Shown piece by piece: positions 24,508 through 26,333 of a DNA stretch of 26,333 nucleotides. How positions within the stretch are numbered: position 1 is the stretch's first letter; every line of letters starts with the position of its first letter. The stretch is from a virus: positions 1-26,333 of IMG/VR virus record IMGVR_UViG_3300025402_000057, one strand, 5' to 3'. The notes below the pieces were generated by a model that saw nothing but the letters and a program-made list of their open reading frames with translations, was not told the DNA's origin and searched no databases. The position numbers and the translations under genes were made by a program.

Positions 24508-25215
24508 ATGGCAGGTAATATAAGCGACTTCAGAAGTTCATTCACAGATGATCTATCAAAGACATCTAGATTTGATGTGCTTTTTAATTTTCCCATAGAA
24601 CTTGGTTCAGTGACGGGTATTGGTGCAGAATCAATCTCCCTTAGGTGTGATGTTTCTGAACTGCCCGGAAGAACTTTTCAGTTGTATGAACAAAAAATAT
24701 ATGGCCCCACAGAAAAGTATCCTTTTCAAGCGATTTACAATGATATAACGTTCTCTTTCATATGTACCGATAACTTACTTGAAAAAGCGGTATTTGAGAA
24801 TTGGTTACGATATATCAATCCAGAAGAAGATTGGAATTTTAAATATAAAACAGATTCTAATTATATACAGCCTATTCTAATAACACAATATAATAATGAT
24901 GGAACAATAGCCCAGGTTATTAAATTGCACGATGCTTTCCCTCACACAATAAACTCTTTAGATTTGAATTGGTCTGATGATGGTTATCACAAAATGGCAG
25001 TCACATTTTCATATTTTTATTGGACAGTAGATAAACAACCCAGTGTAGCATCTATTCCATCTTATGTGTATAATACTGTACCACAAGCAGGAACAACAAC
25101 AGCACCAATACAAACACCAGTGAATCCAATTTATGGTTCTGGACCAGTACCCGCAACAACAGGAACTTCTTTTTCGTCTGATAATCCACAAGACTACATT
25201 ATGTCGGGTGGTTGA
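24508..25215 (+). CDS. Tail-tube-like protein, probably baseplate tail tube initiator gp54
   Basis: The 235-residue protein has the tail-tube fold pattern shared by gp19, gp48 and gp54. It reads SRFDVLFNFPIELGSV, SLRCDVSELPGRTFQLYEQK, FQAIYNDITFSFICTDN, LLEKAVFENWLRYINPEEDW, then LHDAFPHTINSLDLNWSDDG and VTFSYFYW. With gp48 identified elsewhere and gp26 next door, gp54 (which starts the tube on top of gp48) is the best guess; a paralogous tube protein is the alternative. The last 55 residues are Pro/Thr/Ser-rich (from about residue 178) and probably flexible or exposed, which is unusual for a buried tube initiator. The start has AAGGA 7 bases upstream and directly follows the preceding stop. 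Confidence 0.65.
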   Translation: MAGNISDFRSSFTDDLSKTSRFDVLFNFPIELGSVTGIGAESISLRCDVSELPGRTFQLYEQKIYGPTEKYPFQAIYNDITFSFICTDNLLEKAVFENWLRYINPEEDWNFKYKTDSNYIQPILITQYNNDGTIAQVIKLHDAFPHTINSLDLNWSDDGYHKMAVTFSYFYWTVDKQPSVASIPSYVYNTVPQAGTTTAPIQTPVNPIYGSGPVPATTGTSFSSDNPQDYIMSGG

Positions 25216-25244: not shown

Positions 25245-25964
25245 ATGTTACCTAAGATAGATGCCCCGATTTATAGTCTTACCTTACCTTTGTGTAATAA
25301 GAAGATTGAGTATAGACCTTTTTTAGTAAAAGAACAAAAAATTCTTATGATGGCTTTAGAATCGGATGAAAAAGATTCTATGGAAAAAGCAACTCGTCAA
25401 GTACTAAGAAACTGTACACTCACTGATATAGATATTGATAATGTTCCATTAGTGGATATAGAATTTTATTTTCTTAATCTTAGAGCAAAATCAAGTGGAG
25501 AAATATCAGAATTAGTTTACAAGTGCGGAAATGTAATTAATGATAAAAAATGTGATAATAGAATGGAAGTAAATGTAAACCTTTTGGATATAAAAGTAGA
25601 AAAGAACAATACAGTTTCCGATCTTATACAATTAACACCCGCAATTGGTATTAAAATGAAGTATCCAACATACTCTATTATGAATCAATTGAATAGTGAT
25701 GATGATATTCACGATATTGCTATCAATACAGTAGTTGAATGTATTGATTATGTGTATGATCAGGATGTTATCTATCATACTAAAGATGTTACAAAAAAAG
25801 AACTTTGTGGATTTATAGAATCATTAAATGCAGATCAATTCAAAAAAATAGAAAATTTCTTGGATAACTTACCACAACTTAAAAAGAAAATAGAAGTTGA
25901 TTGTAAAAAATGTGGTTTTCATCATGAGATTAATATAGAAGGCATTGAAAGTTTTTTCGCATAG
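25245..25964 (+). CDS. gp26: Baseplate hub assembly protein gp26
   Basis: The 239-residue protein fits the T4 gp26 family (T4_baseplate, T4: 208 residues). It has PLCNKKIEYRPFLVKEQKIL near the N-terminus, then a middle segment IEFYFLNLRAKSSGEISELV, and an end DCKKCGFHHEINIEGIESFF. Four cysteines at 94, 103, 220 and 223 could form a zinc ribbon. In T4, gp26 is needed for hub assembly. Upstream GGAG sits 9 bases before the ATG. Only three codons before its TAG stop is the heptamer T TTT TTC in the zero frame, allowing a -1 shift into a downstream open frame; see the frameshift entry. The unshifted product ends in SFFA. Confidence 0.85.
   Translation: MLPKIDAPIYSLTLPLCNKKIEYRPFLVKEQKILMMALESDEKDSMEKATRQVLRNCTLTDIDIDNVPLVDIEFYFLNLRAKSSGEISELVYKCGNVINDKKCDNRMEVNVNLLDIKVEKNNTVSDLIQLTPAIGIKMKYPTYSIMNQLNSDDDIHDIAINTVVECIDYVYDQDVIYHTKDVTKKELCGFIESLNADQFKKIENFLDNLPQLKKKIEVDCKKCGFHHEINIEGIESFFA
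25952..25958 (+). promoter_or_regulatory. Predicted -1 ribosomal frameshift site (T TTT TTC)
   Basis: In the gp26 frame the bases read as agt-ttt-ttc-gca-tag, so the heptamer T TTT TTC is in the correct X XXY YYZ phase. A slip of one base back gives TTT TTT and then CGC, and the new frame stays open for 62 codons, to 26143. A perfect 6-base hairpin (25982-26003) lies 23 bases after the heptamer. The motif is a classic form; function here is predicted. Confidence 0.65.
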
Positions 25965-26146
25965 CACTTTGTAATGACACATTGTCCAATTATTATAGGA
26001 CAAATTTTAACTTGATGCAACACCATAAATATAATCTAACGGAACTGGAAAACATGTTACCGTGGGAAAGGGACATTTATGTTGCTCTCCTTATCAAACA
26101 TGTAGAAGAAGAAAACGAAAGGATTAAACAACTTAATAAAAAATGA
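25958..26146 (+). CDS. gp51-like hub assembly segment, -1 frame extension of gp26
   Basis: After the slip the -1 frame continues 62 residues. It includes LSNYYRTNFNLMQHHKYNLT, ELENMLPWERDIYVALLIKH and VEEENERIKQ, a helical Glu/Lys-rich block with the PWERDIYVALL motif of short tail-assembly frames annotated near gp26 or as gp51 in T4-like phages. The combined gp26-extension product would be 300 residues. The protein-like pattern starts upstream of the first ATG (26015), which would give 43 residues; that ATG has only AGGA 14 bases away, inside a hairpin stem, and a later ATG (26054) would discard the QHHKYNL part. T4 gp51 is far longer, so the name is by position only. Its TGA overlaps the next ATG (ATGA). 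Either a frameshift product or a separate short protein is possible; I favour the frameshift. Confidence 0.65.
   Translation, partial: RIALCNDTLSNYYRTNFNLMQHHKYNLTELENMLPWERDIYVALLIKHVEEENERIKQLNKK
25982..26003 (+). other. Hairpin downstream of frameshift site
   Basis: ttgtcc (25982-25987) pairs perfectly with ggacaa (25998-26003) over a 10-base AT loop. It may stimulate frameshifting or take part in a pseudoknot. It also buries the AGGA that could serve as a ribosome site for the ATG at 26015. The short stem and lack of a T run make a terminator unlikely. Confidence 0.45.
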
Positions 26147-26333
26147 AAATAAAAAACTCAAAGGGTAAAAAATCTTCAGTAATTCCTGAAGTTAAAGAGT
26201 CTCCAACAACTCCTACAGTTAAAGAGTCTCCAACAACTCCTACAGTAGAACAAGTTACATCTGCAACTCCTACAGTTAAAGAGTCTCCAACAACTCCTAC
26301 AGTAGAACAAGTTACATCTGCAACTCCTACAGT
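26143..26333 (+). CDS. Start of a Thr/Pro-repeat structural protein, cut by window edge
   Basis: The ATG at 26143 overlaps the preceding TGA by 4 bases (ATGA), and 63 codons are visible with no stop. The first 16 residues are Lys/Ser-rich (MKIKNSKGKKSSVIPE). The rest is tandem units VKESPTTPT and VEQVTSATPT in the order A-A-B-A-B. Nothing can be said about the body. Its place directly after a tail-assembly frame (where tape measure genes usually sit) makes a tape measure or other long tail protein possible, but this is a guess. The Thr/Pro-rich repeats look like a flexible, exposed linker. Confidence 0.75.
   Translation, partial: MKIKNSKGKKSSVIPEVKESPTTPTVKESPTTPTVEQVTSATPTVKESPTTPTVEQVTSATPT
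26191..26331 (+). repeat. 27- and 30-base tandem repeats in the last gene
   Basis: Unit A (27 bases, VKESPTTPT) occurs at 26191, 26218 and 26275. Unit B (30 bases, VEQVTSATPT) occurs at 26245 and 26302. A and B together repeat as a 57-base block. Copies are identical at the nucleotide level, including codon choice, which indicates recent duplication. The array runs into the window edge. Confidence 0.95.

Follow-up and report, generated by a model that had tools for sequence, protein, structure and literature searches.

The locus examined here raises the question of how a short reading frame at the 3' end of a T4-type gp26 gene is translated: as a gene of its own, or as an extension of gp26 reached by -1 ribosomal frameshifting. 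The gene lies on a virus contig of 26,333 nt (IMG/VR record IMGVR_UViG_3300025402_000057, positions 1 to 26,333), the whole of which is referred to as the window. Very probably (about 0.94), the phage is of T4 type with gp26 as its short tail assembly chaperone, and a -1 slip on T_TTT_TTC gives a long form of ~300 aa that carries the gp51 domain.

Reading frames at the 3' end of gp26

The following features of the window are considered:

24508-25215, + strand: upstream gene, tail tube or tube initiator (gp19/gp54 type); phrog_45 tail tube, E=2e-31
25245-25964, + strand: gp26 (239 aa), read as the short tail assembly chaperone (TAC-N) and ending at TAG 25962-25964 in normal termination
25938-25942, + strand: GAAGG, a weak Shine-Dalgarno-like element 9 nt upstream of the heptamer
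25952-25958, + strand: slippery heptamer T_TTT_TTC; tandem -1 re-pairing to TTT TTT
25958-26146, + strand: -1 frame extension, gp51 or TAC-C domain, 62 codons; stop TGA 26144-26146
25982-26003, + strand: small TTGTCC/GGACAA hairpin 3' of the slip site; unsupported as a stimulator, though a possible one
26143-26333, + strand: next gene, putative tape measure (by position) with a repeat-rich N terminus, running off the contig end

The gp26 product matches the family PF12322 (T4_baseplate) over positions 2-219 of the 219-position profile (E=5e-57, 193 bits against a cut-off of 24.5) and the baseplate hub family phrog_150 (E=4e-61). The codons of the gp26 frame from 25950 onward are AGT TTT TTC GCA TAG (25962-25964), which places T_TTT_TTC in X_XXY_YYZ phase. 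Read from 25952, the -1 frame gives FFRIALCNDTLSNYYRTNFNLMQHHKYNLTELENMLPWERDIYVALLIKHVEEENERIKQLNKK and then a stop, corresponding to 62 codons past the shift. Codon reading thus confirms both parts of the original prediction at this point, a T TTT TTC just before the gp26 stop and a -1 frame that stays open for 62 codons. The prediction had also described the residues after the shift as protein-like before any ATG; this holds for RIALCNDTLSNYYRTNFNL and fails for the rest of the peptide quoted, since the first ATG of the -1 frame (the M of NLMQHH) lies inside that peptide. A TTG codon of the same frame encodes the L of LSNYY.

The extension matches phrog_634 (gp51, baseplate hub assembly catalyst; E=4e-28), a family that is matched by all 39 members of the extension alignment. 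Columns 7-232 of phrog_150 match gp26 and its C-terminal 50 columns match the -1 peptide, indicating that fused forms exist in the family. The predicted product of gp26 and extension together (TAC-NC) is ~300 aa long. Most ribosomes would stop at TAG 25962 and release gp26, and a minority would slip one base back on T_TTT_TTC and translate 62 more codons to give the ~300 aa form with the gp51 domain. By analogy with lambda gpG and gpGT, many short and few long subunits might coat the tape measure protein encoded by the next gene, and the extension might recruit tube subunits. Slippage itself, its rate and the binding partners of each form are what we infer here.

The repeat protein that follows had been proposed as the tape measure. 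Its position and length make this plausible, but a family search with the next gene returned no significant match. A contig that is identical to the window over gp26 (L003) extends the next gene to at least 473 aa, and the downstream genes of two relatives have weak tape measure matches (E ~1e-4 to 1e-5). At its N terminus (window 26143-26333, L003:3899-5317), the putative tape measure consists of 27/57-nt repeats (KESPTTPTV, EQVTSATPTV), which continue in L003 with further copies followed by charged and hydrophobic stretches. The gene at the tape-measure position in phage P-HM2 (L084:3375-5207) matches VanY peptidase (PF02557) at residues 388-479, which would give this putative tape measure a cell-wall enzyme domain. 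At the other end of the window, positions 1-1068 encode collagen-like glycine-rich repeats (GTQG/GIQG) on the - strand, perhaps part of a tail fibre, which run off the contig end.

Conservation across related loci and rival readings

A scan of IMG/VR with gp26 identified 80 loci, and further scans and isolates were added later. Every locus of the IMG/VR scan with a complete gp26 end carries an in-phase U6N near the stop together with a -1 extension of ~55-70 residues, which is shorter only at contig ends; over all 105 canonical loci the extension measures 56-73 residues. The canonical set consists of 105 loci in 43 clusters at 70% identity. The heptamer is in phase in 43 out of 43 canonical clusters (TTTTTTC in 25, TTTTTTT in 10 and TTTTTTA in 8), where loci were admitted by having the heptamer and only the Ackermannviridae type, Vibrio phage D506 and the two-gene phages were left out for want of it. 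Members of the set include cyanophages, pelagiphage Mosig, Sinorhizobium phage phiM19, Agrobacterium phage OLIVR5, Stenotrophomonas phage Marzo, Vibrio phages QD01 and K575, Aeromonas phages P19, ZPAH1 and AsFcp_1, Cronobacter phage S13, and many uncultured phages.

The original prediction had proposed an alignment of related gp26 loci as a check; both the heptamer and the -1 frame are kept in the 43 clusters, and constraint at the heptamer is visible at the codon level. The codon preceding the heptamer ends in T in all clusters (p ~7e-11) and the first Phe codon is TTT in all clusters (p ~1e-7), both under the genes' own codon usage and with related clusters that are not fully independent. 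As a control, an in-phase TTTTTT[ACT] was found within the last 46 nt of 4 out of 197 further long ORFs from these loci, and the -1 frame of the control ORFs was open for at least 50 codons in 29%. The dN/dS ratio of the extension is 0.077 (37 independent pairs, synonymous sites near saturation), showing that it evolves as protein.

The short -1 frame might instead be gp51 as a gene in its own right, read from a start codon of its own or after a restart past the gp26 stop. This agrees with GenBank records, where small gp51 genes (~30 to 57 codons) begin at internal downstream starts, and with the TAATG found in the right frame at the gp26 stop of a few non-canonical relatives (L089, L118-L120), where a restart is possible. 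In the canonical group, however, the first ATG, GTG or TTG of the -1 frame falls anywhere from residue 1 to residue 31 of the extension depending on the cluster, and in two clusters it precedes the slip site. A Shine-Dalgarno sequence at the first start of the -1 frame is absent in nearly all canonical clusters, and conserved residues (D.L.NYY.TNF) stand before that start in many. On these variable, SD-poor starts and the conserved residues before them, an independent gp51 start was rejected for the canonical group. A separate gene would also leave the invariant heptamer and its codon bias unexplained, and T4 gp51 contains the gp26 domain fused in frame, making this reading of the window quite improbable. 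Several GenBank gp51 genes (L084:3283-3375, L085:3256-3390, L101:3220-3360 and similar) seem to annotate the -1 extension in truncated form.

Were the slippage transcriptional, with mRNAs that gain one U or lose two at the T run, the product would be almost identical, and every canonical locus does have at least six T. Yet most loci have C or A as the seventh base, six T alone make a short run for efficient transcriptional slippage, and the conserved Shine-Dalgarno-like element described below acts on ribosomes and not on the polymerase; this explanation is considered even less probable than a separate gene. Least probable of all is that the extension is the functionless, decayed coding sequence of an old frameshift mutation, given a dN/dS of ~0.08 and its retention in 43 clusters of several phage families.

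Candidate stimulatory elements and possible variant slip sites

Relatives of the window carry a stronger GGAGGG-type sequence at the position of GAAGG. This Shine-Dalgarno-like element is conserved in the family ~9-14 nt upstream of the slip site (Wilcoxon p 2e-13), and its mean anti-SD energy is -4.9 kcal/mol compared with -0.8 kcal/mol elsewhere in the same genes; the value for the window itself is only -1.9 kcal/mol. Glu is encoded by GAG in 26 out of 40 cases near the slip site and in 242 out of 942 cases elsewhere (p 4e-7), and GGT is avoided near the slip site (non-GGT bias p 4e-4), so the signal goes beyond a conserved Glu-Gly. The spacing of 9-14 nt agrees with known -1 stimulators (PMC5009743). 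On the 3' side, the TTGTCC/GGACAA hairpin of the window is not better than shuffled sequences (z = -0.47), and no conserved 3' structure was found across the loci (mean z ~-1.2 just past the site, compared with ~0 to -0.6 within gp26). Strong downstream hairpins occur in some lineages only (L068, L078 and L084).

The Ackermannviridae (L091, L092 and L104-L121) and Vibrio phage D506 (L089) retain the extension without the heptamer. The candidate slip site at the corresponding place is N_NTT_TTC and has no obvious Shine-Dalgarno-like element: G_GTT_TTC in phiMAM1, A_ATT_TTC or G_ATT_TTC in others, and A_CTT_TTC in D506. T7 gene 10A, for which the record joins a second reading frame, has G_GTT_TTC close to its end as well. 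A scan with D506 gp26 found no relatives.

Probable chaperone identity and the two-gene arrangement of T4

An AlphaFold2 model of the window gp26 (pLDDT 93) was compared with 647 chains using VIA-align. The best match was 3fgx (Z 8.0, 85 aligned residues, 3.7 A), a structure named phage tail assembly chaperone (PMC9603447), followed by the HK97 tail assembly chaperone 2ob9 (Z 7.4, 83 aligned, 3.6 A) and then by matches at 5.8 and 4.4, where a Z under ~8 can reflect a mere common arrangement. The 3fgx and 2ob9 matches cover gp26 residues 1-94 at 6-9% identity and leave the remaining ~150 residues uncovered. Foldseek alone gave no match under E 0.001 for the gp26 model, a sequence search of solved structures gave no matches, and a model of T4-type gp51, standing in for the frameshift product, had no chaperone match with Foldseek or VIA-align. 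As far as the model goes, an HK97-type chaperone fold of gp26 supports the chaperone identity without proving it.

A 2010 review describes gp26 and gp51 as hub assembly chaperones, with gp51 essential and of unknown function (PMC3004832). The original prediction knew of no description of gp26 in T4-like phages; this does not hold, as the chaperone identity, the poly-T signal and the two-gene variant of T4 appear, according to the citing texts, to have been published in 2022. Vladimirov, Gautam and Davidson (2022; Virology 566:9-15) named chaperone genes of T4-like phages which, judging from the citing text and from the T4 genes analysed here, would be gp26 and gp51. In papers that cite this work, poly-T is a known -1 signal in T4-like TAC-N genes (PMC12846349), and some T4-like phages have one short and one long fused chaperone gene and do not use frameshifting (PRFect paper, PMC10885494). 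The window shares with the published pair, as it is cited there, a short and a long form and the families PF12322, phrog_150 and phrog_634, and is therefore a further case of a published kind. The conserved stimulator, the breadth of the family and the variant slip site of the Ackermannviridae are possibly new here.

In place of the single gene and slip site of the window, T4 and some relatives have two separate genes. Genes 26 and 51 of T4 are such a pair and are divergent. The T4 gp51 protein is a PF12322 domain that runs in frame into the extension, and gp26 consists of the first part only, with neither extension nor heptamer; its Phe-Phe codons are now TTC TTT, so the heptamer is gone. T4 gp26 and gp51 are thus the short and long forms from two separate genes. 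Divergent 51/26 pairs were also found in phage 31, a Krischvirus, phiP4-3 and Ac42. RB43 carries the long (51) and short (26) genes in tandem (L096:3501-4791), which may represent a step between the one-gene state and the divergent gene pair.

All gp51 sequences group together in a gene tree (100%) and the frameshift genes stand apart from the two-gene forms; the tree is unrooted, which leaves the direction of change unproven. The wider spread of the frameshift form suggests that frameshifting was lost by duplication. On balance we give even odds to a scenario in which an SD-stimulated U6N cassette was ancestral for the two chaperones of the T4-type superfamily and was replaced once by duplication (a short 26 and an in-frame fused 51) in the branch of T4, RB43, Krischvirus, Biquartavirus and the Acinetobacter phages, with T4 gp26 keeping a dead slip site, RB43 keeping both copies in tandem, and the Ackermannviridae using the variant N_NTT_TTC site, which resembles that of T7 gene 10.

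The lambda G/GT system (PMC5009743) resembles the window in the placement of the gene before the (here putative) tape measure gene, the -1 slip near the 3' end, and the production of a short and an extended form. It differs in its slip site, which is U6N in the window, and in the larger short form of the window (239 aa), which has extra regions. The conservation in 43 clusters, the constraint at the heptamer, the lack of a consistent start, the chaperone fold and the fused T4 gp51 all support the view, put forward in the original prediction, of gp26 plus the frame downstream as the T4-type version of lambda G/GT. The slip site of lambda is G_GGA_AAG. As in the family studied here, the slippery heptamer of Escherichia coli dnaX is paired with a Shine-Dalgarno-like stimulator 9-14 nt upstream (PMC5009743), but the dnaX heptamer is A6G and not U6N, and the family studied here has no consistently conserved 3' stem-loop.

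A frameshifted gp26 would place a hidden long tail-assembly protein in many T4-type phages, marine ones and others, in whose records gp26 and a tiny gp51 stand as two unrelated-looking genes, and would make T4 gp51 readable as the long chaperone form. The Shine-Dalgarno-like element and U6N would together form a testable cassette for frameshift rates in cyanophages and pelagiphages. Among the one-gene Straboviridae, the downstream genes of two (L087 and L090) were tested and fall outside the T4 gp29 family (phrog_1283); two others (L098 and L103) were grouped with them by position as having a downstream gene that is not of the T4 gp29 type. Chaperone and tape-measure genes may be exchanged as a module.
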